Of a DNA stretch of 61,206 nucleotides, positions 35,929 through 56,530 are shown piece by piece. How positions within the stretch are numbered: position 1 is the stretch's first letter; each line of letters opens with the position of its first letter. The DNA is taken from the NCBI GenBank assembly GCA_017469265.1, contig JAFUGS010000081.1, positions 1 through 61,206 of the forward strand, read 5' to 3'. The position numbers and the translations under genes were made by a program. This stretch comes from Clostridia bacterium (GTDB taxonomy: Bacteria > Bacillota > Clostridia > Christensenellales > Aristaeellaceae). The notes under the pieces are model-generated. The model did no database searches and was not told where the DNA came from. It saw only the letters and a list, made by a program, of their open reading frames with translations.

Positions 35929-37632
35929 TCATTCATCCGACTGCAAAGCGTCGTATCCTTCCTCGCCGGTGCGCACGCGCACCACGTTTTCCACATCCTG
36001 CACGAAGATTTTCCCATCGCCGATATGGCCGGTATGAAGCACGCCGCGGGCGGTGTCAATCACCTGGCGGACCGGCACTTTGCTGACCACGATATCCACC
36101 TGCACCTTGGGCAGCAGGGTTACTTCCACAGGGGTGCCGCGGTAGTATTCCGGCCTGCCCTTCTGCATCCCGTAGCCCATTACGTTGGTAACGGTCATGC
36201 CGGTGATGCCGATTTTATTCATGGCTGTTTTGAGACTCTCCAGGCTGGCGGGGCGGCAAATGATCTGTACCCGGGTATAGGCAGGCGCATCAGGCGCTTT
36301 TTCCTTTGCTTTGCGGGGTGAGTCCACATGATCGGCAGCCACCGCAACGGGTACGGTTTCCGTTTCGGCCGGACTGCCGTCCGGCAGGATGGAGAAGCCG
36401 GAATAGGCGGTAATCAGGCCGTGCTCGGAACGATCCAGCCCCATGATTTCATCCGCCGCGTCAGCCCGGAGACCGATCGTCTTTTTGATGAGCATAAAAA
36501 CCAGGGTAATGATGGCAGCCGTCCAGACGATGGTACTGCCCACGCCAAGCAGCTGGATGCCCAGGAATCTGAACCCGCCGCCATAGAACACCCCTTTCAT
36601 GGTGGATACGCCGGTGGCGAAAAAGCCGGTCAGGATCGTGCCCAGCGCGCCGCAGACCCCATGCACCGATATCGCACCGACGGGGTCGTCGATCCTGGCT
36701 GCCTTGTCGAAAAATTCCACCGAAAGCACCACCGCGATGCCGCAGCAAATGCCAATGATGGCAGCGCCAAAGGGATTCACCGCATCGCAGCCCGCCGTGA
36801 TGCCCACCAGCCCCGCCAGGGCGCCATTGAAAGTCATGGAAACGTCGGGCTTTCCGTAGCGCAGCCAGGTGAACAGCATGGTCACCAGCGTTGCCAGGGC
36901 TGCGGCCAGGTTGGTGTTGAAAAACACGAGACCGGCGGAGGTAATTAGTTCATCGGTGTCCATTCCCACGGTGGAAGCGCCGTTGAATCCGAACCAGCAG
37001 AACCACAGGATGAACACGCCCAGGGCGGCAATGGAAAGATTGTGGCCCAGGATGGCTTTCGGTTTTCCGTCCTTGCCATACTTTCCGATACGGGGTCCCA
37101 GCATCTTTGCGCCGATCAAGGCGCACACGCCGCCTACCATATGCACGGCAGTGGAACCGGCGAAATCATGGAAGCCCATCTCCGCCAGCCATCCGCCGCC
37201 CCAGATCCAATGGCCGGACACGGGATAGATGAACAGGGAAATCGCCGCGGAATAAATGCAGTAGGCGGAAAATCTGGTGCGCTCCGCCATTGCGCCGGAA
37301 ACAATGGTGGCGGAGGTGGCGCAGAACACCGTCTGGAAAATGGCGTAAGCCCATAGGGGAACGCCTGCGGGAAGAATGTGGCTGTAATCCCCCATGATGA
37401 AGGGATCGATCCAGCCAAAGGCCGCCGTACCCGCGCCGAACATGATGCCAAAGCCGAACAGCCAGTACAGGGGCGTGCCAATACAGAAATCCATCAGGTT
37501 TTTCATCAGGATGTTGCCGGTATTCTTGGCCCGGGTGAAGCCTGCCTCGCACATGGCAAAGCCAGCTTGCATGAAGAAAACCAGGGCCGCGCCCAACAGG
37601 ACCCAGATGGTGTTTGCGGGAGAATACGTCAT
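35929..37632 (-). CDS. amt: ammonium transporter fused to a C-terminal PII regulatory domain
   Basis: This 567-residue protein has two parts. Residues 1 to about 420 are an Amt/MEP/Rh channel with 11 TM helices (GFAMCEAGFTRAKNTGNIL, the pore histidines in STAVHMVGG and AISVHGVCGALG). A linker of about 35 residues leads to a complete PII (GlnB/GlnK) domain over the last about 115 residues: the GMTVTNVMGYGMQKGRPEYYRG T-loop with the usual modifiable tyrosine and Gln39 equivalent, LLPKVQVDIVV, and TGHIGDGKIFV (canonical TGKIGDGK, one Lys replaced by His). In ordinary bacteria GlnK is a separate protein that plugs the channel when ammonium is plentiful; here the plug is covalently attached. The start is ATG 37632 behind GGAAG. 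Confidence 0.93.
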   Translation of the reverse strand: MTYSPANTIWVLLGAALVFFMQAGFAMCEAGFTRAKNTGNILMKNLMDFCIGTPLYWLFGFGIMFGAGTAAFGWIDPFIMGDYSHILPAGVPLWAYAIFQTVFCATSATIVSGAMAERTRFSAYCIYSAAISLFIYPVSGHWIWGGGWLAEMGFHDFAGSTAVHMVGGVCALIGAKMLGPRIGKYGKDGKPKAILGHNLSIAALGVFILWFCWFGFNGASTVGMDTDELITSAGLVFFNTNLAAALATLVTMLFTWLRYGKPDVSMTFNGALAGLVGITAGCDAVNPFGAAIIGICCGIAVVLSVEFFDKAARIDDPVGAISVHGVCGALGTILTGFFATGVSTMKGVFYGGGFRFLGIQLLGVGSTIVWTAAIITLVFMLIKKTIGLRADAADEIMGLDRSEHGLITAYSGFSILPDGSPAETETVPVAVAADHVDSPRKAKEKAPDAPAYTRVQIICRPASLESLKTAMNKIGITGMTVTNVMGYGMQKGRPEYYRGTPVEVTLLPKVQVDIVVSKVPVRQVIDTARGVLHTGHIGDGKIFVQDVENVVRVRTGEEGYDALQSDE

Positions 37633-37664: not shown

Positions 37665-37748
37665 CAAAAAAGGCGCCGGGTGCGTTCAGCACACCCTTGC
37701 GCCTTGTTGGAATGATGGCATTTTATGCTGGAGAAAGCCTGCTGTCAA
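37665..37748 (-). promoter_or_regulatory. amt promoter followed by a leader terminator (attenuator)
   Basis: On the minus strand TTGACA (37743-37748) and TAAAAT (37720-37725) are 17 bases apart. About 8 bases after the expected start of transcription comes a two-part hairpin: outer stem AAGGCGC/GCGCCTT (37699-37705 with 37670-37676) and inner stem GGGTGTG/CGCACCC. It is followed by a T run, all upstream of the amt start. This layout implies regulated read-through. Confidence 0.7.
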
Positions 37749-37797: not shown

Positions 37798-37908
37798 CTG
37801 AAAAACAGAAGGAATGCAATCCAACTTCTTGACTTTGAAAATGACAGGCAGTAGAATGTCTGCGACAAGGCAAGGGAGCCATGTTGTGATGGTTCCCTTG
37901 CCTTTTTT
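37798..37908 (+). promoter_or_regulatory. gltB promoter and leader terminator (attenuator)
   Basis: TTGACT (37829-37834), 17-base spacer, TAGAAT (37852-37857); transcription should start near 37864. Immediately after is a 14-base-pair hairpin, GGCAAGGGAGCCAT (37869-37882) with ATGGTTCCCTTGCC (37889-37902, one G-U), six-base loop GTTGTG, then six T residues. An almost identical element precedes glnA. Confidence 0.82.
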
Positions 37909-37987
37909 GTTTTTGTGAAAGAGGTTCCTGCCATGAGCAGGCACAGCACGGAAGACCTCATTCGGATGGGGTGTGAAGATGATGGGG
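37798..37987 (+). repeat. duplicated glnA 5' region, copy upstream of gltB
   Basis: Aligned by hand without gaps to 56170-55981 (minus strand), I count 26 mismatches in 190 bases, about 86% identity. The copy spans the promoter, the terminator hairpin, the ribosome-binding site GAGGTTCCTGCCATG and the first about 18-21 codons of glnA. Confidence 0.9.
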
Positions 37988-38022
37988 AATGCCTGAAATC
38001 GCCAAGGGGGACGGAGGGATAA
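37933..38022 (+). pseudogene. 29-codon leader ORF derived from the start of glnA
   Basis: The frame starts MSRHSTEDLIRM against [12 protein letters not shown] in GlnA, continues to EDDGE against EDDVE, then diverges and stops at 38020-38022, two bases before the gltB ATG. The start keeps the glnA ribosome-binding site (AAAGAGG here, AAGGAGG in glnA). The gltB Shine-Dalgarno sequence lies inside its last codons, so translation of this small frame could influence gltB. It is either a mere fossil of the duplication or a functional leader peptide; the sequence alone cannot tell. Confidence 0.7.
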
Positions 38023-38024
38023 AC

Positions 38025-41000
38025 ATGCGGGACCAGCAATATCCGCTGTATCAAGAAGAACTGGAGCATGAAAGCTGCGGTGTGGGTGCCATCGTGGATC
38101 TGAGCGGGAAAAGCACCCACCGCACCGTGGATCAAGCGCTTTCCATCGTGGAGCGGCTGGCCCATCGGGCGGGCAGCGACGCTTTGGGCACCACCGGCGA
38201 CGGCGTGGGCATCATGACAAATCTGCCTCATGCCCTGTTTTCCGCCTGGGCTCAGGAGGAAGGCATCAGCCTGGGAAAACCCGGAGACTACGGTGTGGGT
38301 ATGTTTTTCCTGCCGGAGGATGATGTGGGCGTGAAGAACATCTGTCGGATTTTTGAGCAGCTTGCCCTGGCGGAAGGAATGCGGGTGCAGGGCTGGCGGG
38401 ATGTGCCCTGCCATCCGGCCCAGCTGGGCGCGGGAGCTCGCCGCACCATGCCCCGCATCCGGCAGTGCTTTTTGACCCGTCCTGCTTCCATTGGCTCCGG
38501 CGCGGATTTTGACCGGCGGCTTTATGTGCTGCGCCGGGTATTTGAAAAGCAGGACACGGATACCTACATCTGCTCTCTTTCCAGCAAAACCATTGTGTAT
38601 AAGGGCATGATGCTGGTGAATCAGTTGCGCTCCTTCTACGACGATCTCCAGGATGTACGCTATACCTCCCGGATGGCCCTGGTGCATTCCCGCTTTTCCA
38701 CCAATACCTTCCCTTCCTGGAGCAAAGCCCATCCTCAAAGGATGCTGCTGCACAACGGGGAGATCAACACCATCCGTGGCAACCATGACCGGATGAAGGC
38801 CCGGGAAGAAACCATGCGCTCGCCGGTCATGGGGGAGGAGATGCGCCGGGTGCTGCCCGTGGTGCAGGATGGGGGCAGCGACAGCCAGATGCTGGACAAC
38901 ACCCTGGAATTTCTGCACATGAACGGGTTCCCCCTGTCCCTGGCAGGGATGATCCTGATGCCGGAGCCCTGGCAGGGGCAGAGGAACGCTGCGCCGTGGC
39001 GGGATCTGTACCGGTATTACGCCACCATGATGGAGCCCTGGGACGGCCCGGCAGCCGTCCTCTATTCCGATGGGGACACGGTTTGCGCCTCTTTGGACCG
39101 GAACGGTCTGCGCCCGCTGCGCTGCGCCCTGACCGATGACAGACGGCTGATCCTCTCCTCCGAGGCGGGGGTGCTGTTTGAAGAAAACGCCCATATCCTG
39201 CGCCGCTGGAAGCTGAAAAGCAGCGACGTGCTGGAAGCAAACTTACGCACCGGGGAACTGCTGGAAAGTAAAGAACTGAAAACCCGCTACGCCAAAGCCC
39301 AGCCTTATGGGGACTGGATGCGGTGTTTGATTGCCTTAAACGATCTGCCCAAAGCGCCAGGGGGAAAAGACAATCTGGACGAAGCCCGGCGCAGGAAGCT
39401 GTGCAAAGCCTTTCACTATACCCAAGAGGATATGCAGCATATCCTCCTGCCCATGGCTGAAAACGCGGCGGAGCCCATCGTGTCCATGGGGGCGGACGTA
39501 CCCATCGCCGCCTTGTCGAAAACCCATCCTTCCTTATTCGATTATTTTAAACAGCGCTTTGCCCAGGTGACCAACCCGCCTATCGACGCCCTGCGGGAGG
39601 AAATCAAAACCGACTGCTCCATTTATATCGGGGATGACGGCAATCTGCTGTCGGGCGGAGCGGATAACTGCACCGTGCTGGAATTGCCATCGCCGGTGCT
39701 GACGGAGGAGGAACTGGGCCGCGTCCAGGCTTTGAATCATCCCGCTTTTTCCGTACGCACAATTTCCCTTTTATATGCCAGAGAGATGAGCCTGCGAGCT
39801 GCTTTGGAGGCTTTCTTCGCGGCCTGCGATCAGGCGTGTGGATCGGGCGTCAATATCCTGATTTTATCCGATCAGGGCGTGGATGAAGCCCATCTTGCCA
39901 TTCCCTCCCTGCTGGCGGTGTCCGCGCTGGAGCAGCATCTGATTCACATCAAGAAGCGGACGGCGGTCTCCGTGATCCTGGAAAGCGGCGAGCCTCGGGA
40001 CGTGCATCAGGTGGCTATGCTGATCGCCTACGGGGCCCGGGCGGTGAATCCCTATCTGGCGCATGACTGTGTCAGGGCTCTTTGCGAAAAAGGCCAGGTG
40101 CAAAAGGAATCAGAGGAAGCCATCCGGGATTACGATCGGGCGCTGACGGCCGGGGTGCTCAAAATTGCCTCCAAAATGGGCGTTTCCACCCTGCAAGCCT
40201 ATCAGAGCGCCCAGCTGTTTGAGGCCGTGGGTCTGGACGGGCAGTTTGTGGGAACCTGCTTCACCAACACGCCCTACGCTTTGGGCGGCGCAGACCTGAA
40301 CACCATCGAAATGGACAGCCGCTTTCATCATGCCGCCGCCTTTGAAGGGATGGAAGATGGCCTGCCCAGCATCGGCGTGCACAAGCTGCGTACGGGAGAG
40401 GGGGCGGAAGAACACCTGTATTCCCCGGAAACCATCCATCTCTTGCAGCAGGCTGTCTGGACAGGGAATAAAGAATTATTCGATCAATACGCGGACCGCG
40501 TGGAAAACGAGGGTCCCCGCACCATCCGCTCCATGCTGACCTTTGATTTTGACGCCTGCCGGGAAATCCCATTGGAAGAAGTGGAAGGCGCCGAAAAGAT
40601 CGTTCGGCGCTTCCGCACCGGGGCCATGAGCTACGGTTCCATCTCCCAGGAAGCCCATGAGTGTATGGCCCGGGCCATGAACCATCTGGGCGGTAAAAGC
40701 AACAGCGGCGAGGGCGGCGAATTGCCCGAACGCTACGGAACGAATCTTAATTCCGCCATCAAGCAGGTGGCCTCCGGCCGCTTTGGCGTTACTCGGGAAT
40801 ATCTGCTTTCCGCGCGGGAAATCCAGATCAAAATGGCCCAGGGCGCCAAGCCCGGTGAGGGTGGGCATCTGCCGGGGGCCAAGGTGACCGAAAGCGTTGC
40901 CAGAACCCGCTGCTCCACGCCGGGCATTTCCCTGATTTCCCCGCCGCCGCACCATGATATTTATTCCATCGAGGATTTGGCCGAGCTGATCTATGATCTG

Positions 41001-42341
41001 CAATGCGTCAATGAGCAGGCCAGGATCACCGTTAAACTGGTTTCCTCCACGGGCGTGGGCACCATCGCCAGCGGGGTGGCCAAAGCCGGAGCGGGCGGCA
41101 TCCTGATTTCCGGCGGCGAAGGCGGCACGGGAGCCGCGCCGCAGAGCTCCGTTCACCACGCGGGCCTGCCCTGGGAAATCGGTCTGGCCGAAGCCCATCA
41201 GGTGCTGTGCCGCAACAGACTGCGCCAGAAGGTGACGCTGGAAACGGACGGCAAGCTGATGAACGGCCACGATGTAATGGTGGCGCTGCTGCTGGGAGCC
41301 GAGGAATTCGGCTTTGCCACAGCGCCTCTCGTCACCATGGGCTGCCGGATGATGCGAGTGTGCCATCTGGGCACCTGCCCCTTCGGCATCGCCACGCAGA
41401 ATCCCGAACTTCGTAAGCGGTTCATCGGTAAGCCGGAATATGTGGAACGGTTCATGCTGTTCATCGCGGAGCAACTGCGGCGCATCATGGCAAAGCTGGG
41501 CGCGCGCACGGTGGACGAGCTGGTGGGGCGCAGCGACCTGCTGAAAATGAAGCCGGACGCGAAGATGGATCTGAGCGACCTGATCGGCTTTGCCCGGAAC
41601 ACGCATTATCAGCCGGACGCCAGGCACGATTTCCGCCTGAGCGAGCGCACCGACGCAAGGCTCTTCCAGGATCATGTGCAGCTCATGACCACAGACCGGG
41701 CCTTCGGCACGATGCTGAAGGGTAGCCGTCACATCCAGGCCCAGGGATGCGGCGGGCAATCCTTCGGGGCGTTTTTGCCGGAGGGACAGCAGATCACCCT
41801 GTATGGGGTAGCCAACGATTACCTGGGCAAAGGATTATCCGGCGGAACGATTGCCGTGTGCCCGCCGGTGGACAGCGTATGGAAGCCGGAAGACACTCTG
41901 ATCGGCAACGTGGCGCTCTACGGAGCCACCTCGGGCCAGGCTTTCATTGCCGGGATGGCCGGCGAGCGCTTTTCCGTGCGCAATTCCGGGGCCTGGGCCG
42001 TGGTGGAGGGTGTGGGCGATCATGGCTGCGAATACATGACCGGGGGCCGGGTAGCAGTGTTGGGCCCCGTGGGAGACAATTTCGCTGCCGGCATGTCGGG
42101 CGGTATCGCCTGGGTGCTGGATGAAAAGAATACCTTAAAGGATCACATGAACCCGGGCCACGTGAAAATCTACGCCGTTCCGCCCGACCGGGCGGGCGAA
42201 CTGCGGTGCCTTTTGCAGCAGCACGAACGGGCAACGAGCTCAAAAAAAGCGAAAGAGATCCTTGCGCACTTCGATGCATATCTGCCCAGATTCAAAGCGG
42301 TGATTTCCGATGAATATTTATCCTTCCTGAAAGGGGCATGA
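38025..42341 (+). CDS. gltB: glutamate synthase, large subunit
   Basis: This 1438-residue GOGAT alpha subunit makes two glutamates from glutamine and 2-oxoglutarate. A 17-residue propeptide precedes the catalytic cysteine in ESCGVGAIVDL, the N-terminal nucleophile of the class II glutaminase. Then come the central domain, the FMN-binding domain (TGAMSYGSISQEAHECMARAM and the GGTGAAPQSSVHHAG loop), the iron-sulphur cysteines around MGCRMMRVCHLGTCPFG, and the C-terminal GXGXG beta-helix (GQSFGAFLPEGQQITLYG). The start is fixed by GGAGGG and by the propeptide length; a frame 12 codons longer exists. It is first in a gltB-gltD-carA-carB/dapF operon. AAA and TTG codons are commoner than in the left half of the window. 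Confidence 0.97.
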   Translation: MRDQQYPLYQEELEHESCGVGAIVDLSGKSTHRTVDQALSIVERLAHRAGSDALGTTGDGVGIMTNLPHALFSAWAQEEGISLGKPGDYGVGMFFLPEDDVGVKNICRIFEQLALAEGMRVQGWRDVPCHPAQLGAGARRTMPRIRQCFLTRPASIGSGADFDRRLYVLRRVFEKQDTDTYICSLSSKTIVYKGMMLVNQLRSFYDDLQDVRYTSRMALVHSRFSTNTFPSWSKAHPQRMLLHNGEINTIRGNHDRMKAREETMRSPVMGEEMRRVLPVVQDGGSDSQMLDNTLEFLHMNGFPLSLAGMILMPEPWQGQRNAAPWRDLYRYYATMMEPWDGPAAVLYSDGDTVCASLDRNGLRPLRCALTDDRRLILSSEAGVLFEENAHILRRWKLKSSDVLEANLRTGELLESKELKTRYAKAQPYGDWMRCLIALNDLPKAPGGKDNLDEARRRKLCKAFHYTQEDMQHILLPMAENAAEPIVSMGADVPIAALSKTHPSLFDYFKQRFAQVTNPPIDALREEIKTDCSIYIGDDGNLLSGGADNCTVLELPSPVLTEEELGRVQALNHPAFSVRTISLLYAREMSLRAALEAFFAACDQACGSGVNILILSDQGVDEAHLAIPSLLAVSALEQHLIHIKKRTAVSVILESGEPRDVHQVAMLIAYGARAVNPYLAHDCVRALCEKGQVQKESEEAIRDYDRALTAGVLKIASKMGVSTLQAYQSAQLFEAVGLDGQFVGTCFTNTPYALGGADLNTIEMDSRFHHAAAFEGMEDGLPSIGVHKLRTGEGAEEHLYSPETIHLLQQAVWTGNKELFDQYADRVENEGPRTIRSMLTFDFDACREIPLEEVEGAEKIVRRFRTGAMSYGSISQEAHECMARAMNHLGGKSNSGEGGELPERYGTNLNSAIKQVASGRFGVTREYLLSAREIQIKMAQGAKPGEGGHLPGAKVTESVARTRCSTPGISLISPPPHHDIYSIEDLAELIYDLQCVNEQARITVKLVSSTGVGTIASGVAKAGAGGILISGGEGGTGAAPQSSVHHAGLPWEIGLAEAHQVLCRNRLRQKVTLETDGKLMNGHDVMVALLLGAEEFGFATAPLVTMGCRMMRVCHLGTCPFGIATQNPELRKRFIGKPEYVERFMLFIAEQLRRIMAKLGARTVDELVGRSDLLKMKPDAKMDLSDLIGFARNTHYQPDARHDFRLSERTDARLFQDHVQLMTTDRAFGTMLKGSRHIQAQGCGGQSFGAFLPEGQQITLYGVANDYLGKGLSGGTIAVCPPVDSVWKPEDTLIGNVALYGATSGQAFIAGMAGERFSVRNSGAWAVVEGVGDHGCEYMTGGRVAVLGPVGDNFAAGMSGGIAWVLDEKNTLKDHMNPGHVKIYAVPPDRAGELRCLLQQHERATSSKKAKEILAHFDAYLPRFKAVISDEYLSFLKGA

Positions 42342-42345: not shown

Positions 42346-43758
42346 ATGGGAAAAACCACAGGTTTTATGGAATATTCCCGGACGGAAAACCCGTATCGGG
42401 ACACGCGGGAACGCCTTCAAGATTTTCATGATCTGCATACAGCCCAGCCCGCGGACACGCGGCGTTGCCAGGCGGGACGCTGTATGGACTGCGGCGTGCC
42501 CTTCTGTCAGTCGGACTTCGGGTGCCCTTTGCACAACCTGATCCCCGAATGGAATGATTTGCTGTATCAGGGGCAGGAACAGGAAGCCCTGGAGCGTCTT
42601 CTGATGACTGCCCCCTTCCCGGAGTTTACGGGGCGTGTATGCCCCGCGCTTTGCGAAAAAGCCTGCAACCTGGCAGACAACGGCGTGACCAACCGGGATA
42701 ACGAACTGTACTTGATTGAAACGGGCTTTGTCAGGGGCGAGATTCAGCCACGGATCCCTGCCGTGCGCACAGGGAAAAAGGTCGCTGTGATTGGCAGCGG
42801 TCCCGCGGGATTGGCTGCGGCGGACCTGCTGAACCGGCAGGGCCATCATGTCACGGTGATGGAGCGGGCCGACCGTCCCGGCGGGCTGCTCATGTACGGC
42901 ATCCCCAATATGAAACTGCCCAAGGAGATTGTTGCGCGGCGTATCCGCCTGATGGAGGCGGAAGGCGTTTCCTTCCTGCTGAACACCGCTGCGGAGCCCG
43001 GTCTGCTGAACGCTTACGACGCGGTGCTCTTGTGCTGCGGCTCCAGGAAACCCCGTTCCCTGCAAGTTGAAAACATGAATGCTCATGGCGTGCATTTTGC
43101 CGTGGATTATCTCACCGCGGCTACCCGGAGCGTACTGACCCAGACCGCGCCCGGGATCACCGCCCAGGGGAAGCGTGTCGTCGTGGTAGGCGGTGGAGAT
43201 ACGGGCAACGATTGCGTGGGCACAGCTCTGCGTCAGGGTTGCTTTAGCGTTACGCAGCTGGAAATGATGCCCAAAGCCTCGGAAAACAGACCTGCCGGAA
43301 ACCCATGGCCAGCATGGCCTCTCACCCTGCGCACTGATTATGGTCAGGTGGAAGCCATCTTCCTGCAGGGCAGTGATCCCCGCGTTTATGAAACCACTGT
43401 TAAAAGCATTCAGGTGAATGCTGAAAACAGGATCACCGGTCTGGAAACAGTGCGGCTGCAAAAACAGTCCGATGGCAGGCTGACTTCCGTTTCAGGCACG
43501 GAACAAACGCTGCCCTGTGATTTGCTGCTGATTGCGGCGGGCTTCATCGGCTGTGAAGAGGAAACACTGTCCCGCTTTTCTCTCTCCGCGGATGCACGGG
43601 GACGGGTGCTTCCCAAGGATGGTTCCCATCACCTGGAGGGCAAGCTGTTTTCCGCCGGGGATATGCGAAACGGCCAGTCCCTGGTGGTGCGGGCATTGGC
43701 GGACGGACGTTCTGCCGCCAAAGAAATCCATGATTGGCTGAGGGGGACGCAAGGATGA
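42346..43758 (+). CDS. gltD: glutamate synthase, small subunit
   Basis: This 470-residue beta subunit passes electrons from NAD(P)H through FAD and iron-sulphur centres to GltB. The N-terminal ferredoxin-like cysteines are CQAGRCMDCGVPFC, then GCPLHN and CPALCEKACN. The FAD site is VIGSGPAGLAAADLLNRQGH and the second dinucleotide site is VVVGGGDTGNDC. It ends with the FAD motif GKLFSAGDMRNGQSLVVRAL. It starts four bases after the gltB stop, so the two are translationally linked. Confidence 0.96.
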   Translation: MGKTTGFMEYSRTENPYRDTRERLQDFHDLHTAQPADTRRCQAGRCMDCGVPFCQSDFGCPLHNLIPEWNDLLYQGQEQEALERLLMTAPFPEFTGRVCPALCEKACNLADNGVTNRDNELYLIETGFVRGEIQPRIPAVRTGKKVAVIGSGPAGLAAADLLNRQGHHVTVMERADRPGGLLMYGIPNMKLPKEIVARRIRLMEAEGVSFLLNTAAEPGLLNAYDAVLLCCGSRKPRSLQVENMNAHGVHFAVDYLTAATRSVLTQTAPGITAQGKRVVVVGGGDTGNDCVGTALRQGCFSVTQLEMMPKASENRPAGNPWPAWPLTLRTDYGQVEAIFLQGSDPRVYETTVKSIQVNAENRITGLETVRLQKQSDGRLTSVSGTEQTLPCDLLLIAAGFIGCEEETLSRFSLSADARGRVLPKDGSHHLEGKLFSAGDMRNGQSLVVRALADGRSAAKEIHDWLRGTQG

Positions 43759-43789: not shown

Positions 43790-44854
43790 ATGGCTTTTCT
43801 GACGCTCAGCAATGGAACCATTTTCGAGGGACGCCGTATTGGCGCCCCTGTTGACCGCGTGGGGGAGCTGGTTTTCAGCACCGGCATGGCGGGCTATCTG
43901 GAAACCCTCACCGATCCCAGTTATTACGGCCAAATTGTCACCCAAAGCTTTCCATTGATCGGCAATTACGGCGTGATCCCGGAGGATTTTGAGGGTACGC
44001 CGCGGCTGTTTGGGTATATCGTTCGCGATTTATGCGATACGCCCTCCAATTTCCGAAGTGAGGGGAAACTGAATGATTTTCTGCTTGACTATGGCATTCC
44101 GGGCCTGTGCGGGGTGGACACCCGGGAGATTGTGCGCACCGTGCGGGAAGAGGGCGTCATGAACGCCATGATCTCCGACGCGCCGCCCGCGGATTTGGCA
44201 GCGCTCCGGGCCTTCCGGGTGGAAAACGCGGTGGCCGCCGTGACCGGCCGGGAAAAACGGGTGCTCCCGGCCGACGGTGAACGGCGCTTCCGCGTGGCGC
44301 TGATGGATTACGGCGTAAAGCGGGGCATAGTCCGCTCCCTGCGGGAAAGGGGGTGCGAGGTCACGGTATGGTCTGCCGGAACGAAAGCGGAGCAGGTGCT
44401 TGCGGAAGCCCCGGACGGCATCGTGCTGTCCAACGGGCCGGGGGATCCCAGGGAAAACAGGGACTGCGCGGCGGAAATCAGGAAAATACTGGGGAGTAAG
44501 CCGGTGATGGGTATCTGCCTGGGGCATCAGCTGATCGCCCTGGCCCTGGGCGGGGAAACGGTGAAGCTGAAATATGGCCACCGCGGCGGCAATCAGCCGG
44601 TGAAGGATCTGGACACGGGCCGCAGCTGGATCACCAGCCAGAACCACGGATACGCGGTGGTGGCGGAAAGCCTGCGGGGTGTCGGGCGGGAAACCTTCAT
44701 CAACCTGAACGACGGAAGCTGTGAAGGCATGGATTATCCCGATCTCCGGTGCTTTTCCGTTCAGTTCCATCCGGAAGCCTGCTCAGGCCCCAGGGATACG
44801 GGCTTCCTTTTTGACCGCTTCATCCGCATGATGGGAGGGAAGAAAGATGCCTAA
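43790..44854 (+). CDS. carA: carbamoyl-phosphate synthase, small (glutaminase) subunit
   Basis: This 354-residue class I glutamine amidotransferase subunit supplies ammonia to CarB. The N-terminal CPSase domain reads LTLSNGTIFEGRRIGA. The glutaminase domain carries VLSNGPGDPRE, the catalytic cysteine in MGICLGHQLI (about residue 243) and the His/Glu pair in SVQFHPEACSGP. It lies in the gltBD-car operon with a 31-base gap and overlaps carB by eight bases. No other pyrimidine or arginine gene is adjacent except pyrG further on. Confidence 0.96.
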   Translation: MAFLTLSNGTIFEGRRIGAPVDRVGELVFSTGMAGYLETLTDPSYYGQIVTQSFPLIGNYGVIPEDFEGTPRLFGYIVRDLCDTPSNFRSEGKLNDFLLDYGIPGLCGVDTREIVRTVREEGVMNAMISDAPPADLAALRAFRVENAVAAVTGREKRVLPADGERRFRVALMDYGVKRGIVRSLRERGCEVTVWSAGTKAEQVLAEAPDGIVLSNGPGDPRENRDCAAEIRKILGSKPVMGICLGHQLIALALGGETVKLKYGHRGGNQPVKDLDTGRSWITSQNHGYAVVAESLRGVGRETFINLNDGSCEGMDYPDLRCFSVQFHPEACSGPRDTGFLFDRFIRMMGGKKDA

Positions 44855-47800
44855 GGATACATCCATCCACAAGGTGCTGGTCATCGGCTCCGGCCCCATC
44901 ATCATCGGTCAGGCGGCGGAATTTGATTATGCCGGGGCCCAGGCCTGCCGGGTACTGAAGGAAGAGGGCGTGGAGGTGGTGCTGGTCAATTCCAACGCGG
45001 CCACCATCATGACGGATCAGCATTTGGCCGATCATATTTATCTGGAGCCCATGAACGCGGCCATCCTGCGCCGCGTCATCGAAAAGGAACGCCCCGATGG
45101 GATGCTGGCCAGCCTGGGCGGTCAGACTGCCCTGACCCTGGCCATGCAGCTCAGCCGGGACGGCACCCTGGATGAATTCGGCGTGCGGCTGCTGGGCTCG
45201 TCCATGGAGGCCATTGAAAAAGCGGAGGACCGGGAACAGTTCCGCAATATCATGCAAGCCATCGGCCAGCCCTGTGTGCCCTCCCAAATCGCCGAAACAC
45301 TTGACAGCGCCAGGCACGCCGCCAGGGAAATCGGCTATCCCGTGATTGTCCGTCCGGCCTACACCCTGGGTGGTACAGGCGGCGGCATCTGCGAGGATGA
45401 AGCTGCTCTGCTTTCCATTGCCAAAGTAGGCCTGGACGCTTCACCCATCCAACAAATTCTGGTGGAAAAGTGCATTGCCGGGTGGAAGGAAATCGAATTT
45501 GAAACTCTGCGGGATCATTTGGGAAACGCCATTGCGGTTTGCTCCATGGAGAACGTGGACCCCGTTGGCATCCATACCGGGGACAGCATCGTGGTGGCCC
45601 CTACGCTGACACTCTCCGACAAGGAATATCAACTGCTGCGCAGCGCCAGTCTGCAAATGATCGAGGCCATCGGCATCGAGGGCGGCTGCAACTGCCAGTT
45701 CGCGTTGAATCCTGATTCTTTTGAGTACGCCGTGATCGAGGTCAATCCCCGGGTGTCCCGTTCCTCCGCCCTGGCCAGCAAGGCCACCGGGTACCCCATC
45801 GCCAAAATCACCACCCGCATTGCTCTGGGTTATACCCTGGACGAGCTTCGCAACGACGTGACCGGGCAAACCAGCGCATTTTTTGAGCCAACACTGGATT
45901 ATGTGGTGGTTAAAATTCCCAAGTGGCCTTTTGACAAATTCCAGGGCACATCCCGCAGCCTGGGCACGCAAATGAAAGCCACCGGCGAAGTCATGGCCAT
46001 CGGGCAGAGCTTCGAAGAAGCGCTGATGAAGGCGGTTCGCGGCGCGGAAATCGGTCTGGACTCCTTAAACGCGCCGCCGTTGACCCATGAACCTGTCACA
46101 GCGCGGTTAGCGTGTCAGGATGACTACCGGCTGTTTACCGTGTTCGAGGCGCTAAAGGCGGGTATGACAATAGACGCCGTTTTCGCGCTGACGAAAATGG
46201 ACCGCTGGTTCCTTTCGCGTCTGCAAGCGATGGCGATGCTGGAAAACCGCATCGCCAATACTGGTTTGAAGGCGGGAGATTACGAACAGCTGAAGCGATT
46301 GGGATACCCTGACGGGGCCATCCGACGCCTGTTCCACGCCGATCAGCTTCCCGTCTGGTCTGCCAGCTACAAGATGGTGGATACCTGCGGGGCAGAGTTT
46401 TCGGCCCGCACGCCGTACTTCTATTCCTGCTGCGATGCTGCCTGCGATGCCCGCAGTTTCCTTCGCAGTGGCAAACCGGTGGTGATCGTGCTGGGATCCG
46501 GCCCCATCCGCATCGGTCAGGGCATCGAGTTTGACTATTCCTCCGTGCACTGCGTGTGGACTTTGCGGGAAATGGGCTATGATGTGGTGATTATCAACAA
46601 TAACCCCGAAACCGTGTCTACGGACTATGATACCGCTGATCGGCTGTACTTTGAGCCACTCTGCCCAGAGGACGTGATGAACGTCATCAGGGTGGAAAAG
46701 CCCATCGGGGTGGTAGTGGCTTTTGGCGGACAGACTGCCATCAAGCTGACCCAATATCTGGATCAGCATGGCATCCGCATTCTGGGCACCTCCGCTGAGT
46801 CTATAGACATTGCGGAGGACCGCGCCCGGTTCGACAAGCTGCTGGAGAAGTTCGGCATCCGCCGTCCCCGTGGCGTGGGCGTGAACACCTTGGAGGAAGC
46901 GGTCAGCGCCGCTGAGGAGCTGGGCTATCCCGTGCTGCTGCGGCCCAGCTATGTCATCGGCGGACAGAACATGACCATCTCCCGCACCCGGGAACACACG
47001 ATCGCCTATATGGAAAAAATCCTGGCCGGGGGCATCGACAATCCGGTGCTTATCGACCAGTACCTGCCCGGAATCGAGCTGGAGGTGGACGTGATATCCG
47101 ACGGCACCGATGTGCTGATCCCCGGCATCATGGAGCATATTGAGCGGGCGGGGATCCATTCCGGGGACTCCATCGCCGTGTATCCGCCTTATAACTTAAA
47201 CGACGTATTCCTGAAAAGAATCTGCGATTGCAGTGAAAAGCTGGCCCTGGCCCTGGGCACCAAAGGGCTGGTCAATATACAGTACTTGATTTACAATGAC
47301 GAATTGTACGTGATAGAGGTGAACCCCCGGGCCAGCCGCACGGTGCCCTATATCAGCAAAGTGACCAAGGTGCCTATGGTGGATTTGGCCTCCAGGGTGA
47401 TGCTGGGAGCGAAGCTGATCGATTTGGGCTACGGCGCTGGCCTGTATCATACGCCGCCCTATGTGGCCTGCAAGGTGCCGGTGTTCTCCTTTGAAAAGCT
47501 GAACGACGCCAACAGCATTCTGGGCCCTGAAATGAAATCCACAGGCGAGGTGCTGGGCATCGGCAAAACCCTGCCCGAAGCCCTGTTCAAGGGCCTCACC
47601 GCCGCGGGCTTTTCCGTGCCCTCTCCCCACAGCCAGAAGAAAACCGGCGTGTTCCTGAGCGTGGAGGAAAATGATTATCAGGAAATAATATCCTTAGCGA
47701 AGCGGTTCTTCGATCTTGGACTGTACCTGTACGCGACCCGGGGCACCTCTCAGGCCATCGACAGCCTGGGGATTCCCGTCACCGCCGTGGCAAACGCTAC

Positions 47801-48881
47801 AGAAAACGACGAGATCACTGACCTCATGGAAAGCGGCGGCATCCATTATATTGTGTACACCGGGGCCGTGAAGGATGCCACCATCGGGGATTACACCGTG
47901 CTGCACCGGAAAGCCATGCAGCTGGGCATTCCCTGCCTGACCAGCCTGGACACCGCCGGAGCCCTGGCGGATATTATGGCTTCCCGCTTCACGGGACAGA
48001 ACACCGAGCTCATCGACATCAACCACATGCGCCCCTGGCGGCAGAAAAACCACTTTGCCAAGATGCAGTCCTGCGGCAACGATTACATTTTTATCGAGAA
48101 TTTCGACGGGGCCATCACCTGCCCCGAATCCCTGTGTGTGCAGTTGTGCGAGCCTCATTTCGGCATCGGCGGGGACGGCATCGTGCTGATTGAAAAATCC
48201 AATATCGCCGACGCGAAGATGCGTTCCTTCAACAAGGACGGCAGCGAAGGAAAAACCGCTGGCAACAACCTGCGCTGCGTGGCGAAATATTTGTATGACA
48301 AAGGCTACGTCCACAGTGAGTACATGGCCATCGAAATGGCGGGCCGGGTGCACCATCTGAAAGCCTACCTGCGGGATGGAAAAGTGAATTCCGTATCCGT
48401 CAGCATGGGCAAGGCGTCCTTCACCGCAAAGGATATTCCAGTCATTGCGGATACAAACGAAGTGATCAATCAGCATATCAGCATCGGCGGCAAGGAATAT
48501 CCCATCACCTGTGTATCTGTTGGCAATCCCCATTGCGTGGTATTCTGCGACGCCATTGACGGCATCGATCTGAGCACCATTGGCCCGCAGTTTGAGTACG
48601 CACCGATATTCCCGGATCGGGTGAACGCGGAGTTTGTTCGTGTGATCGGCCCTCAAACGCTTCGCCTGCGTGTATGGGAGCGGGGCAACGGAGAAACGCT
48701 GGCCTGTGGGACCGGCGCCTGCGCGGCGGTTGCCGCTGCTGTGAAGACGGGCTTGCTTCCGGCAAAAAAGTCGATAGATGTCAGGCTGCCCGGCGGCACG
48801 CTGTCCGTGATGGTCACAGAGGATGGTATGTATCTGACCGGTGAGACGATGCTTACCTTTGAAGGCAGTTTTGTTTATTGA
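44847..48881 (+). CDS. carB: carbamoyl-phosphate synthase large subunit fused to a diaminopimelate epimerase domain
   Basis: This 1344-residue protein has two parts. Residues 1 to about 1062 form a complete CarB: two ATP-grasp halves (GSGPIIIGQAAEFDYAG near residue 10, GSGPIRIGQGIEFDYS near 550) and an MGS-like regulatory domain ending NTELIDINHMR. From about residue 1069 (base 48051) a full-length DapF-like domain of 276 residues follows in the same frame, with FAKMQSCGNDY, HFGIGGDGIVLI, GNPHCVVF and ERGNGETLACGTGACAAV. The second catalytic cysteine of DapF is present (about residue 1287), but the first, normally in CGNG, reads TAGN (Ala about residue 1138). A cysteine six residues on (LRC) remains. 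Carbamoyl-phosphate synthesis is secure. Epimerase activity on LL-diaminopimelate is doubtful without the first cysteine, although dapL is encoded nearby. Confidence 0.92.
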   Translation: MPKDTSIHKVLVIGSGPIIIGQAAEFDYAGAQACRVLKEEGVEVVLVNSNAATIMTDQHLADHIYLEPMNAAILRRVIEKERPDGMLASLGGQTALTLAMQLSRDGTLDEFGVRLLGSSMEAIEKAEDREQFRNIMQAIGQPCVPSQIAETLDSARHAAREIGYPVIVRPAYTLGGTGGGICEDEAALLSIAKVGLDASPIQQILVEKCIAGWKEIEFETLRDHLGNAIAVCSMENVDPVGIHTGDSIVVAPTLTLSDKEYQLLRSASLQMIEAIGIEGGCNCQFALNPDSFEYAVIEVNPRVSRSSALASKATGYPIAKITTRIALGYTLDELRNDVTGQTSAFFEPTLDYVVVKIPKWPFDKFQGTSRSLGTQMKATGEVMAIGQSFEEALMKAVRGAEIGLDSLNAPPLTHEPVTARLACQDDYRLFTVFEALKAGMTIDAVFALTKMDRWFLSRLQAMAMLENRIANTGLKAGDYEQLKRLGYPDGAIRRLFHADQLPVWSASYKMVDTCGAEFSARTPYFYSCCDAACDARSFLRSGKPVVIVLGSGPIRIGQGIEFDYSSVHCVWTLREMGYDVVIINNNPETVSTDYDTADRLYFEPLCPEDVMNVIRVEKPIGVVVAFGGQTAIKLTQYLDQHGIRILGTSAESIDIAEDRARFDKLLEKFGIRRPRGVGVNTLEEAVSAAEELGYPVLLRPSYVIGGQNMTISRTREHTIAYMEKILAGGIDNPVLIDQYLPGIELEVDVISDGTDVLIPGIMEHIERAGIHSGDSIAVYPPYNLNDVFLKRICDCSEKLALALGTKGLVNIQYLIYNDELYVIEVNPRASRTVPYISKVTKVPMVDLASRVMLGAKLIDLGYGAGLYHTPPYVACKVPVFSFEKLNDANSILGPEMKSTGEVLGIGKTLPEALFKGLTAAGFSVPSPHSQKKTGVFLSVEENDYQEIISLAKRFFDLGLYLYATRGTSQAIDSLGIPVTAVANATENDEITDLMESGGIHYIVYTGAVKDATIGDYTVLHRKAMQLGIPCLTSLDTAGALADIMASRFTGQNTELIDINHMRPWRQKNHFAKMQSCGNDYIFIENFDGAITCPESLCVQLCEPHFGIGGDGIVLIEKSNIADAKMRSFNKDGSEGKTAGNNLRCVAKYLYDKGYVHSEYMAIEMAGRVHHLKAYLRDGKVNSVSVSMGKASFTAKDIPVIADTNEVINQHISIGGKEYPITCVSVGNPHCVVFCDAIDGIDLSTIGPQFEYAPIFPDRVNAEFVRVIGPQTLRLRVWERGNGETLACGTGACAAVAAAVKTGLLPAKKSIDVRLPGGTLSVMVTEDGMYLTGETMLTFEGSFVY

Positions 48882-52437: not shown

Positions 52438-54045
52438 TTACGAACCGCCCTTTTCGATGGCGGCCTGGATAAAGCCCACAAACAGGGGATGGGGCCTGTT
52501 GGGCCGGCTCTTGAACTCGGGATGAAACTGGACACCCACGAAAAAAGCCTCGCCCGGCAGTTCGACGGTTTCCACCAGCCGGCCGTCCGGGGAGAGACCG
52601 GAGAGACATAATCCGGCCTGTTCCAGCGCTTCCCGGAAGCCATTGGCGAATTCATAGCGGTGACGGTGACGCTCACTGATTTCCCGGACGCCATAGCACC
52701 GGGCGATCACCGTGTTCTCCCGCAGCACGCAGGGATATTTTCCCAGACGCAGGGTGCCGCCTTTGTCGATTTCATCGTTCTGCCCAGGCATAAAGTCAAT
52801 GACCCTGTAAGGGGCATTTTCATCAAATTCCCGGGAATTGGCGTTGTCCAGCCCCGCCGCGTGCCGGGCAAATTCGATGACGGCGATCTGCATGCCCAGG
52901 CAGATGCCGAAGTAGGGCAGATGATGCTCCCGGGCATAGGCGGCCGTCAGAATCATGCCCTCGATCCCCCGGCCGCCAAAGCCTCCAGGCACGATCAGAC
53001 CGTCCATGGGGGACAGGACCGCGTCCACATTCTCCTCCGTCAGCGTTTCGGAATCGATCCAGGTGAGGTCAACCCTGGCATCCAGGGCGTAGCCCGCGTG
53101 GCGCAGGGCTTCGGCCACGGACAGATACGCGTCGTGCAGCTGTACGTATTTTCCAACCAGCCCGATTTTTACGCTCCTGCTCTGATGCCGGATGCGCTCC
53201 ACCAGGTTTTCCCATTCGGTCAGATCCGGGCAGGGTGCCTGAATCCCCAGCTCCCGGCAGACGATGGCGGAAAGGTTCTTTTTTTCCAGCATCAGCGGTG
53301 CTTCGTACAGAATGGGCAGGGTCAGATTCTCAATTACGCAGTCCGGCTTGACATTGCAGAAATGAGCGATTTTGGCGAAAATGCTTTCGTCCGTAATCTT
53401 CTCATCCACCCGCAGCACAATGATGTTGGGGCTGATTCCCATCCCCTGCAGCTCCTTCACGCTGTGCTGGGTGGGCTTGGATTTGTGTTCCCCGCTGGCC
53501 TTCAGATACGGCACCAGGGTGACATGGATGTACAGGGCATTTTCCCGTCCGACTTCCAGTCCCACTTCCCGGATAGCTTCAATAAAGGGCTGGGATTCGA
53601 TGTCGCCGATGGTGCCTCCGATTTCGGTGATCACCACATCCGCGTCCGTCTTTTCTCCCACCCGGTAGATGAAGCGCTTGATTTCATCGGTGATATGAGG
53701 GATGGTCTGCACTGTGCTGCCCAGGTACCCGCCCTGACGTTCTTTGTGGATCACATTGGAATAAACCTTGCCTGTGGTCAGGTTGGAATACCTGTTCAGG
53801 TCCTCGTCGATGAAGCGCTCGTAATGTCCAAGGTCCAGATCGGTCTCCGCGCCATCCTCGGTGACGTACACTTCCCCATGCTGGTAGGGGCTCATGGTGC
53901 CAGGATCCACATTGATGTAGGGATCCAGCTTCTGGGCCGCCACCTTGAGGCCCCGGGCCTTCAGCAGCCGCCCCAGGCTCGCGGCCGTGATGCCCTTGCC
54001 CAGACCGGACACCACGCCGCCGGTAACAAAAATATACTTGGTCAC
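52438..54045 (-). CDS. pyrG: CTP synthase
   Basis: This 535-residue enzyme makes CTP from UTP, ATP and glutamine. The N-terminal synthetase domain starts [22 protein letters not shown], with [25 protein letters not shown]. The C-terminal class I glutaminase has the Cys in YFGICLGMQ and the His/Glu in [11 protein letters not shown]. The start is a GTG at 54045, chosen because AAAGGA lies just upstream and because the family begins (M/V)TKYIFVTGG; an ATG eight codons earlier has no ribosome-binding site. It follows nitR by 93 bases on the minus strand and is probably the last gene of a glnA-nitR-pyrG unit. Confidence 0.96.
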
Positions 54046-54138
54046 GTCTTTATCCTTTCGGCCATACATGGATTTCCTGAAGGCGGGATGTCCGCCTGCC
54101 GGCGCGCGGACGGTCAGCGCTGCCGCCGCGCGTCAGGC

Positions 54139-54672
54139 TCATTCGGATGATTTCAAAATCCGAGCCGCGTAATCAGCCATTTTGAGACCATGGTTCATGG
54201 CGTATCGCTGCAGTGCCCGATGGGCTTCCGGCTCGGTGATGCCATGCCGCCGCATCAGGAGCTTTTTCGCTTCTTCCACCGTTTCCTTTTCCGTTCCGGC
54301 CCGTTTGGGCAGACGCATCTGATGCAGCTGGCTCAGCATCTGCACCGCGCCGATCAGCGCCTGGGAAGACAGGGGCAGCGGAAGGCGAAAAACCTCAGGC
54401 GACTCACAGCTTTCCAGCACCAAAGGCCGGGCGATCAGCAGAATCTGAATGCGGTCCCCACAATCCCATTGCAGATCATCGGGCTTGCAGTCCGGAAGCG
54501 TGCCCATCAGCACCACGATGCTGTCCTCGCATTCGTTGATGGCGCGCCGGAGCTCGCTTCCGGAGGCACAGCAGCGAAAAACGGTAAATCCGGAGGAAAC
54601 CAGCAGATGAGACAGCTTCGCCCGGCTTTCTTCCGCAACGCTGGCTATGACGATCCTTGCCACTGGCTTCAC
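54139..54672 (-). CDS. nitR: ANTAR-domain RNA-binding antiterminator next to glnA (NitR/NasT type)
   Basis: This 177-residue protein has an N-terminal receiver-like domain (RIVIASVAEESRAKLSHLL) that lacks the usual phospho-acceptor aspartate pattern. A C-terminal ANTAR domain (about residues 115-170) contains ETVEEAKKLLMRRHGITEPEAHRALQ and YAMNHGLKMADYA. ANTAR proteins bind leader RNA and prevent terminator formation. Proteins of this kind next to glnA in solventogenic clostridia have been named NitR and proposed to act on glnA and glutamate-synthase leaders; I state this from memory. The gene sits 31 bases after glnA, and both glnA and gltB here begin with a terminator. The start is GTG 54672 behind AGGAAGG. 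The symbol is assigned by analogy. Confidence 0.85.
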   Translation of the reverse strand: MKPVARIVIASVAEESRAKLSHLLVSSGFTVFRCCASGSELRRAINECEDSIVVLMGTLPDCKPDDLQWDCGDRIQILLIARPLVLESCESPEVFRLPLPLSSQALIGAVQMLSQLHQMRLPKRAGTEKETVEEAKKLLMRRHGITEPEAHRALQRYAMNHGLKMADYAARILKSSE

Positions 54673-54703: not shown

Positions 54704-56035
54704 TCAATACATGACGAGGTACCGCTCAATCTCCCATCTGCTCACATGGGTGCGGTAGGCGTCCCACTCCTTCTCCTTGCCTTCCACGTACTGAGAAAGC
54801 ACATGTTCGCCCAGGCAGCGGCAGATCACGTCATCCGCCTTCAGGCAGTCAATGGCCTCCCGCAGGGTGCCGGGCAGAGAACGGATGCCTTTCGCTTCCC
54901 GGGTGGCGCTGTCCATGGCGAAGATGTTTTCGGTGATTTCTTCCGGGGGCGTCAGACCCTTTTCAATGCCGTCCAGGCCCGCGGCCAGGCACACCGCCAT
55001 GTTCAGGTAGGGGTTGCAGCTTGGATCGGGGCAGCGCAGCTCCACCCGGGTGCCCATGCCCCGGCTGGCAGGAATGCGGATCAGGGCGGAGCGGTTGCTG
55101 GCGCTCCAGGCCAGATAGCAGGGAGCCTCATACCCCGGCACCAGCCGCTTGTAGCTGTTTACCAGCGGATTGGTCACCGCCGCCATGCCCCGCACGTGAG
55201 CCAGCACGCCGGCAATAAAGGCGTAGGCTTCCCGGGAAAGGCCGCGCTTGTCGCCGGGATCGGCAAAAACGTTTTTCCCGTCCTTGAACAGGCTCATATT
55301 GGTATGCATGCCGCTTCCGTTGATGCCGAAAACCGGCTTCGGCATGAAGGTGGCGTGCAGGCCGTTCTTCTGGGCCAGGGTCTTGACTGCCAGCTTGAAG
55401 GTCATAATGTTGTCGGCGGCGGTGAGGGCGTCGGCGTACTTAAAGTCGATCTCATGCTGGCCCGCGGCCACTTCGTGATGGCTGGCCTCGATTTCAAAGC
55501 CCATCTGCTCCAGGGCCATGCAGATTTCCCGCCGGGTGCTTTCCCCATGGTCCAGGGGACCCAGGTCAAAGTAACCCGCTTCATCGCCGGTGGTGGTGGT
55601 GGGGCGGCCCTGATCATCGGTCTGGAAGAGGAAAAACTCCATCTCCGGTCCGACATTGAAGGAATATCCCATGTCCGCCGCCTTTTTCAGCATCCGCTTC
55701 AGCACGCCCCGGGGGTCCCCGGCGAAGGGCGTGCCGTCCGGGTTGTACACGTCGCAGATCAGCCGGGCCACCTTCCCGTGCTGGGGCCGCCAGGGCAGGA
55801 TGGCGAAGGTGTCCAGGTCGGGCCGCAGGTACTGGTCGCTTTCGTTGATGCGCACGAAGCCCTCAATGCTGCTGCCGTCGATCATGATCTGGTCGTTCAC
55901 GGCCTTTTCAATCTGGCTGGCGGTAATGGCCACATTCTTCAGCTGGCCAAAGATATCGGTGAACTGCATCCGGATGAACTCCACATCATCTTCCCGCACC
56001 ATCCGGATGATGTCTTCCTTGCTGTACTTGCTCAT
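54704..56035 (-). CDS. glnA: glutamine synthetase, type I
   Basis: This 443-residue enzyme makes glutamine from glutamate, ammonia and ATP. Signatures include [18 protein letters not shown], the metal-binding EMEFFLF, the [17 protein letters not shown] region, the ATP-binding [21 protein letters not shown], and [15 protein letters not shown]. Its length and the lack of the adenylylation-loop consensus indicate the Bacillota GSI-alpha type, which is feedback-inhibited rather than adenylylated. A GTG six codons earlier opens the frame, but AAGGAGG is contained in those codons and places the start at ATG 56035. The leader holds a promoter and terminator, and nitR and pyrG follow in the same direction. 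Confidence 0.97.
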
Positions 56036-56170
56036 GGCAGGAACCTCCTTCACAAAAATAAAAAGGGCGAGGGATCCATTCCAACATGGCTCCCTTGCCT
56101 TGTCGCGGACATTCTACAGCCTGTTTTTTTCAAAGTCAAGATGCCGGATTGTATTCCTGATGTTTTTCAG
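55981..56170 (-). repeat. glnA 5' region, parent copy of the element upstream of gltB
   Basis: This is the counterpart of 37798-37987, in inverted orientation about 18 kb away (26 mismatches in 190 by hand). Here the coding part is intact and continues into glnA, so this copy is probably the ancestor. Confidence 0.9.
56056..56139 (-). promoter_or_regulatory. glnA promoter and leader terminator (attenuator)
   Basis: On the minus strand TTGACT (56134-56139) and TAGAAT (56111-56116) are 17 bases apart. The hairpin GGCAAGGGAGCCAT (56099-56086) with ATGGATCCCTCGCC (56079-56066) has a six-base loop GTTGGA and two mismatches, and is followed by a T-rich run. It is weaker than the gltB version. Confidence 0.8.
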
Positions 56171-56234: not shown

Positions 56235-56530
56235 CAATTTCATAGATCAAAGCGATGCGGAAGCAAAGTACCCCGGAATCCGGCCATCCCAGAGAGCGGT
56301 TGATGATGGAAAGACCGTATGACGGCCTGGGGGAAGAACCCTTCCAAGCCCAAGCCGAAAGCGGAAGCGAGTAGGGGAGGCGGGACGGACGGCCCGTTAC
56401 AGCCGTCAGGGCTTGGCGGGAGCAAAGGGGCTCCCAAGAGCCTGACAAAGAAGCAAATCAGGTGGCACCACGGAGAGGCGGCCTTCGTCCTGAAATATCA
56501 GAGCGAATGCCGACCATGAACGGAGGTGCT
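56235..56530 (+). promoter_or_regulatory. T-box leader, probably asparagine-specific, upstream of asnB
   Basis: Stem I is closed by GGAAG (56259-56263) and CTTCC (56341-56345). It holds the AGTA of the specifier loop (56267-56270), CCCC/GGGG and GGCC/GGCC helices, AGAGAG (56291-56296), and a distal hairpin CGGTTGATGATGGAAAGACCG. The 3' side of the specifier loop reads GAAGAACC, giving AAC (Asn, 56337-56339) in the context of asnB. A strong stem III lies at 56406-56445. The T-box core GGTGGCACCACGG (56461-56473) has UGGC in the bulge, complementary to a GCCA tRNA end as expected for tRNA-Asn. Uncharged tRNA-Asn should raise asnB expression. The expression platform is not obvious: GCACC (56465-56469) can pair with GGTGC (56525-56529) over the Shine-Dalgarno sequence and next to a T5 run. 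Confidence 0.88.

Follow-up and report, generated by a model that had tools for sequence, protein, structure and literature searches.

Gene Organization at the Locus

The window, by which we mean the whole stretch of 61,206 nucleotides analyzed here, carries in order amt with a P-II domain on the minus strand; gltB, gltD, carA, and carB-dapF on the plus strand; pyrG, an ANTAR gene, and glnA on the minus strand; and asnB, an aspC-like aminotransferase gene, and guaA on the plus strand. The gltB gene (38025–42341, +) encodes the large subunit of glutamate synthase, with the domains PF00310, PF01645, PF04898, and PF01493, and is followed by gltD (42346–43758, +), assigned to the small subunit by its domains, place, and synteny. 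As judged from the spacing, carA and a carB-dapF fusion (43790–48881, +) probably belong to one transcription unit with gltBD. The fusion itself (44847–48881, +) is a single frame of 1344 aa with a full-length match also in two other genomes, G018 and G036. On the minus strand lie glnA (glutamine synthetase, 54704–56035), which neighbors asnB here and in most mapped relatives, the gene of a NitR-like ANTAR-domain protein (54139–54672; PF03861), and, 3′ of the latter, pyrG (CTP synthase, 52438–54069). The product of amt (35929–37632, −), a gene divergent from the gltB leader, combines PF00909 and a C-terminal P-II domain (PF00543) in one protein, and the aspC-like class I/II aminotransferase gene (58262–59449, +) was assigned by a domain search. 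With Rfam models at gathering scores, two tRNAs and nothing else were called in the window; genes for tRNA-Gln(ctg) and tRNA-Glu(ctc) adjoin each other at 15182–15340. Upstream of asnB, at about 56461–56473 (+), there is a GGTGGCACCACGG stretch, which received no Rfam call at gathering scores and which we take to resemble a T-box.

The ANTAR protein matches PF03861 at 60.7 bits (cut-off, 27.3) in its C-terminal residues 125–173 and is the single match to this domain in the genome of the window (G000), which is 91.75% complete. In protein alignments, for which we took 6wsh to be EutV and assumed a numbering offset of 2, the equivalent of EutV Met172 is kept and that of Tyr164 is His, as in AmiR. 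No Asp was seen by eye at the expected place of the receiver phospho-acceptor in 30 aligned ANTAR proteins; AmiR is described as having a pseudo-receiver (PMC3369936).

Two Copies of the glnA Leader

The leader of gltB (37798–37987, +) and that of glnA (minus strand of 56170–55981) align without gaps with 26 mismatches in 190 positions, exactly the count given in the original prediction, and BLASTN of the two copies gave 165/191 identities (86%, E 3e-64). A search of the whole genome with the gltB leader found strong matches to itself and to the glnA copy (E 4.5e-60), followed by matches at E 0.035, on the reverse strand of the hairpin itself, and at E 0.065; no third copy appeared in the 103 contigs of this 91.75% complete genome at E up to 10. 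The differences are scattered over the whole segment, with 6/31 upstream of the -35 box, 3/29 within -35 to -10, 7/52 from -10 to the T-run, 1/23 from there to the ATG, and 9/55 in the coding part.

The predicted gltB promoter (37829–37857, +), which carries with it a predicted start site, consists of the -35 box TTGACT (37829–37834), a 17-nt spacer, and the -10 box TAGAAT (37852–37857), and the predicted glnA promoter (56111–56139, −) has the same boxes, TTGACT at 56139–56134 and TAGAAT at 56116–56111, 17 nt apart. A GGGAATACAAAGGGAATACAATC-like stretch 5′ of the latter -35 box, at about 56145–56157 (−), was also seen by eye in many glnA leaders of the genus and is a possible activator site. 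Downstream of the gltB promoter is a P2-type hairpin (37865–37884, +) with the loop AAGGGA (37872–37877; A1, G4) and a stem of GGC/GCC that is extended, beyond an A-A mismatch, by three outer pairs. It overlaps an intrinsic terminator (37867–37908, +) with a 16-bp stem, a 6-nt loop, and TTTTTT, whose 5′ arm holds the loop and the 3′ arm of the P2-type hairpin. The glnA leader has the corresponding hairpin and overlapping terminator at 56060–56103 (−), with the loop AAGGGA at 56096–56091 and two internal mismatches in the terminator. Reading this structure as a plain terminator, as was done originally, was right as far as the terminator goes and missed the probable switch, in that the 5′ arm bears an ANTAR-type hexaloop and an ANTAR gene lies directly 3′ of glnA.

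The similarity reaches into coding sequence, as had been claimed. A check for identity confined to the promoter and the hairpin failed, because 46/55 nt of the glnA-like coding stretch before gltB are identical. From the ATG, this stretch (37933–37987) covers 18.3 codons (MSRHSTEDLIRMGCEDDGE, the stub peptide of the gltB leader) and stops after about 19 codons, so that the copying of glnA codons was confirmed at a length of 18–19 instead of about 21. The frame runs on for 10 codons past the glnA part, giving a 29-codon mini-ORF (37933–38022, +; MSRHSTEDLIRMGCEDDGECLKSPRGTEG) of glnA codons 1–19 and then unrelated sequence, with its TAA at 38020–38022, 2 nt before the likely gltB start at 38025. 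GGAGG at 38013–38017 and the relatives point to 38025 as the gltB start, and the mechanical ORF start at 37989 is probably not real. Since the stub frame stops 2 nt before gltB, translation could be handed over, and ribosomes loaded at the old glnA RBS may reach the gltB start by way of the mini-ORF; the mini-ORF product itself has no evident function.

Gene Order in Related Genomes

A search with the leader DNA at E 1e-4 gave matches in 7/61 genomes, G000 included; these were too few to follow the history of the leader, and protein searches were therefore used. With the cut-offs used and the own genome counted, GltB was found in 32/61 and GlnA in 46/61 of the genomes searched. Among the 36 other genomes of the genus, 27 were retrieved because their GlnA and GltB matches lie together, G018 has the two genes apart, and eight could not be placed (G005, with both genes partial and on separate contigs, and G006, G022, G024, G028, G029, G032, and G034, with no GltB match at E 1e-100). 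Thus, glnA and gltB are neighbors in 27/28 other genus genomes with both genes placed. The ANTAR gene lies between them in 26/27 of the retrieved relatives, G036 being the exception, and the three genes are consecutive in one orientation in 26/27 of these relatives, an arrangement found neither in the window nor in G018.

In 10 of 12 more widely mapped genomes, asnB and/or aspC lie 5′ of glnA on the opposite strand, with amt between glnA and asnB/aspC in G014 and G027. Because glnA of the window stands beside asnB as in these relatives, it appears to be still at its old place, and the gltB block to have been relocated against amt. The junction of amt, leader, and gltB is common to G000 and G018 and occurs in none of the other 12 mapped genomes. 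The two also have pyrG after glnA-ANTAR, in G018 with glmS first. Upstream of glmS in G018 (L124), a further hexaloop-like hairpin with a T-run was noted as a pattern match at C15:63935–63978.

A Remnant of the Ancestral Order in G018

In G018, glnA and gltB are on two contigs with different neighbors, and the gltB leader runs from glnA codons 1–17 into the last ~41 codons of the ANTAR gene and then into gltB; by eye, the stub region contains three short frames overlapping end to start. G018 is the sister of G000 for GltB, with 91% identity, and both the GltB and the GltD trees join the two genomes at 100/100. The ANTAR fragment of G018 is closest in DNA to the intact ANTAR gene of G000 (85.3% identity over 102 nt, the best DNA match) and is 73% identical to the intact copy of its own genome; as protein, the fragment (41 residues) is no closer to G000 (73.7%) than to G031 (77.1%) or G002 (74.3%). 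By eye, the two gltB leaders and G000 glnA seem to have in common a promoter type that is private to them. In trees, the intact glnA and ANTAR genes of G018 are placed with those of G007 (99/97 and 97/98), and the asnB of G018 falls with G002/G010/G027/G007, none of them with G000, which suggests that the glnA-ANTAR-asnB block of G018 was probably replaced.

In a comparison of 49 nt of stub sequence, a single position separates G000 glnA from G018, and the G000 gltB stub differs from these two at eight and nine positions, most of its differences altering amino acids. The stub peptide thus appears to be drifting, with the RBS and the start kept. No significant ANTAR trace was detected in the mini-ORF tail at 37988–38024 (781 and 1043 of 2000 shuffles were equally good), and a candidate ANTAR C-terminus at the mini-ORF end (LKS) was dropped, as it had no support in the shuffle test. 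The evidence for a deletion in G000 is therefore that from G018 and from the gene order.

A Probable Path for the Split of the Operon

Comparison of the genomes shows the remnant and the ancestral order, and from these we infer the path and the sequence of events. The stretch of leader, glnA, and ANTAR would have been duplicated, probably in the common ancestor of G000 and G018, when the gltB block left its place near asnB, by a move or an inversion, and came to adjoin amt. The copy beside asnB would have kept glnA-ANTAR and the other copy gltBD, after which the redundant glnA-ANTAR body before gltB would have been deleted, leaving the glnA stub. Seen from asnB, an inverted block from gltB to pyrG together with a duplicated leader-glnA-ANTAR stretch would yield the present order. 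The leader and mini-ORF before gltB would accordingly be left over from a second glnA-ANTAR copy that underwent rearrangement and deletion. The remnants of G000 and G018 end at different places and could reflect separate deletions, and an inversion with staggered breaks, leaving inverted copies at its ends, could stand in for duplication plus inversion.

The split of an operon is well supported, and we consider it quite probable that the gltB leader of G000 goes back to that of an ancestral glnA-ANTAR-gltB-gltD operon, which has since been divided, its leaders serving as ANTAR switches. The original prediction had described the capture of a regulatory cassette; the whole leader, with promoter, terminator, RBS, and glnA start, is indeed present twice, but gltB was not newly placed under glnA control, as the two genes are adjacent in 27/28 of the other genus genomes in which both could be placed. 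That a gltB gene transcribed from another promoter picked up a duplicate of the glnA leader, and with it glnA control for the first time, would agree with the finding of two copies in one genome, 86% alike, that end abruptly within glnA. It is nevertheless very improbable, as gltB already follows glnA-ANTAR in 26/27 of the retrieved relatives and as G018 has ANTAR coding sequence between stub and gltB, which capture of the glnA leader alone would not bring. Since gltB was already behind glnA-ANTAR in the genus, and G018 retains the remnant, no foreign cassette was captured by gltB.

We also regard as unlikely a history of two independent events, in which the glnA-ANTAR pair of G018 decayed in place after a foreign block had arrived beside asnB, and the native pair of G000 was copied separately. 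The grouping of G018 glnA and ANTAR (with G007) and of G018 asnB apart from G000 would fit such a history, as would the different deletion ends, but the two genomes have in common an amt-leader-gltB junction absent from the other 12 mapped genomes, pyrG after glnA-ANTAR, and gltB leaders of one promoter type. An artefact of an assembly in 103 contigs is hardly conceivable, as both copies are on one contig with different flanks and a homologous stub exists in another genome, G018. The gltB gene very probably shares its control with glnA.

Conservation of the Leader Hairpin

In the glnA, gltB, and amt leaders of the window, the A1/G4 hexaloop hairpin lies wholly within the 5′ arm of the terminator, and the two folds therefore exclude each other. 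The amt hexaloop is AAGGGT (37693–37698, −), with the stem GGCGC/GUGCU, and the aspC leader has the hexaloop AAGGGC (58184–58189, +) with a weaker terminator-like fold of -10.2 kcal/mol in the cut stretch. The same element was found upstream of amt, aspC, and, where asnB is divergent from glnA, asnB. The terminator stretch of gltB folds at -33.6 kcal/mol (z -5.67), a stability reached by 0/200 shuffles, and that of glnA at -25.4 kcal/mol (z -1.81), reached by 15/200 shuffles, so that the glnA fold alone is not unusual; the two stretches were 76 nt each, with offsets that were not identical.

The distance from the -10 box to the loop is 14 nt in 19, 15 nt in 11, and 16 nt in one of 31 glnA/gltB leaders. 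The hexaloop of these leaders (n = 31) is AAGGGN, with AAUGAC in G036; as the loop was located by pattern, its constancy is partly built in, and that of the spacing is not. Among 40 leader tips of four gene kinds, chosen by loop pattern, G4 is present in 40/40 rows and A1 in 36/40. The hairpin stem pairs in 88.5% of the cells of these tips, compared with 27.5–42.7% when slid. Double-change cells in the stem numbered 19, compared with 7.0 in shuffles, although rows that are related can exceed shuffles on this and the other measures that stand out; some stem changes are common to one gene kind, so there were fewer events than cells. Two of the five measures showed no excess, namely stem pairs changed on both sides (4 vs. 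2.8 in shuffles; 86/500 as high) and further pair types in the stem (7 vs. 6.1; 170/500 as high).

A P1 hexaloop was sought in the 67 nt upstream of the 31 glnA/gltB leader hairpins; 21 had no A1/G4 hexaloop there, and the matches in the other 10 leaders fall on the -10 or -35 boxes. With the loop 14–16 nt after the -10 box, there is no room for P1. A palindrome near the -10 box in some relatives was rejected as P1, being neither conserved nor of the A1/G4 type and untranscribed if the promoter is right. In exact-pattern searches of genomes, matches did not clearly outnumber those to the reversed control (G000, 22 vs. 11, with places counted repeatedly, and 26 vs. 33); when the G000 matches were inspected by eye, those of amt, gltB, glnA, and aspC alone looked like structured leaders, in a search that would miss loop variants.

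glnA Leaders across the Class

The class sample comprised 391 genomes; GlnA was matched at E 1e-180 in 91 of these, and 90 loci were examined, 89 of which had 120 nt or more of upstream sequence. The strict form of the hairpin, C[AANGRN]G with at least 4 pairs, was defined after the class loci had been seen; it occurred in 26/40 leaders with an ANTAR gene directly downstream of glnA and in 19/49 without (Fisher p 0.019), compared with 0.2 per 40 in first-order resampled sequences. Loose A1/G4 hexaloops (stem at least 4) separated the groups poorly (32/40 vs. 30/49), the strict motif modestly. Among the 45 strict-hexaloop leaders, 39 have one hexaloop and six have two, of which four (L156, L158, L170, and L179, all from one family) show a P1/P2-like spacing; the second hexaloop lies near the start codon in L201 and inside the terminator in L228. 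The four leaders with classical dual spacing have no ANTAR gene directly downstream.

Within the 26 ANTAR-adjacent strict leaders, the best promoter (at most 2 mismatches) ends at most 22 nt before the loop in 16, too close for P1, and three (L142, L147, and L155) have a weak 3-bp P1 candidate. The loop lies within a terminator-like fold in 19/26, and 7/26 have no overlapping fold. Five leaders (L153, L154, L160, L165, and L169) have a long-stemmed AATGGG/AAAGGG hexaloop and no overlapping terminator-like fold; their control may act on translation. In Clostridium paridis (L057), glnA, an ANTAR protein gene, and gltB follow in order, with a 7-bp stem and the loop AACGGC before glnA.

A Predicted Single-Hexaloop Antitermination Switch

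The leader is best read, from its predicted folds, as an ANTAR antitermination switch, and the following mechanism is likely. Each transcript would start with the small A1/G4 hexaloop hairpin; the ANTAR protein would bind and hold it, the 5′ arm of the terminator would become unavailable, and RNA polymerase would read into glnA, gltB, amt, and aspC. With the hairpin unbound, the terminator would form. One diffusible ANTAR regulator could thus keep the GS/GOGAT pathway together despite the split. By a slight margin, we favor the view that the clostridial glnA, gltB, amt, and aspC leaders are ANTAR antiterminators of a class of their own, for which a single hexaloop at the very 5′ end of the transcript, set at a fixed distance from the promoter, suffices, recruitment by P1 being unneeded because the binding hairpin emerges first.

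The leaders might instead be ordinary attenuators or constitutive terminators that act independently of ANTAR, the hexaloop being incidental. Such a reading takes some weight from the fact that read-through and binding are predictions from the sequence, from the motif's occurrence without an adjacent ANTAR gene (19/49), and from the two covariation measures that did not rise above shuffles. We hold it to be rather doubtful, since both hairpin arms lie in one terminator arm, so that termination does not require them to match, yet they pair in 88.5% of cells, and since the distance to the -10 box is fixed, the class motif count is above shuffles, and the ANTAR gene adjoins glnA.

Relation to Known Systems

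The nitrogen cluster of Clostridium saccharobutylicum, the subject of Stutz et al. 2007, reportedly has the order glnA-nitR-gltA-gltB. It resembles the genes described here in combining glutamine synthetase, an ANTAR protein (NitR), and glutamate synthase, whereas the cluster of the window is in two parts, each with a leader, and has a glnA stub before gltB. Antitermination by NitR is described as inducing the GS/GOGAT genes upon nitrogen limitation (PMC6316151).

For EutV/eut, NasR/nasF, and AmiR/amiE, the described target is a pair of hexaloops (PMC3369931, PMC3369936), and dual-hairpin matches have been listed before nitrogen genes, namely those for ammonium transporters, P-II, and glutamate and glutamine synthases (PMC3369931). 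The leader of the window shares with these systems, as they are described there, an ANTAR-domain protein, an A1/G4 hexaloop, and an antiterminator hairpin over the 5′ arm of the terminator; unlike them, it has one hexaloop, placed at the predicted transcript's 5′ end, with no P1 and no linker. According to Walshe et al. 2022 (PMC8934654), the minimal binding motif is redefined as one hexaloop, antitermination in vivo needs both, and single-hexaloop sites are expected where the time limit set by the transcribing polymerase is absent; here, by contrast, the lone hexaloop stands in terminator leaders. The published searches, as described, demanded two stem-loops (PMC3369931, and the actinobacterial ANTAR survey of PMC8164766) and could therefore have missed leaders with one hexaloop. 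As judged by titles and the beginnings of abstracts, the papers listed by our literature searches named no one-hexaloop ANTAR leaders, and "single hexaloop" together with ANTAR returned Walshe et al. 2022 alone.

What looks new is thus a probable ANTAR-type antitermination system with an unusually small, single-hairpin leader, on a split nitrogen operon. The locus shows the splitting of an operon, with both halves keeping one leader that looks regulator-responsive, and the G018 remnant fixes the direction of the change. In effect, the split has transplanted the leader naturally, a hint that it is portable. The leader also bears on the question, raised in Walshe et al. 2022 (PMC8934654), of why EutV needs two hexaloops and yet binds one at a time, and a natural one-hexaloop regulon would let this question be tested directly.
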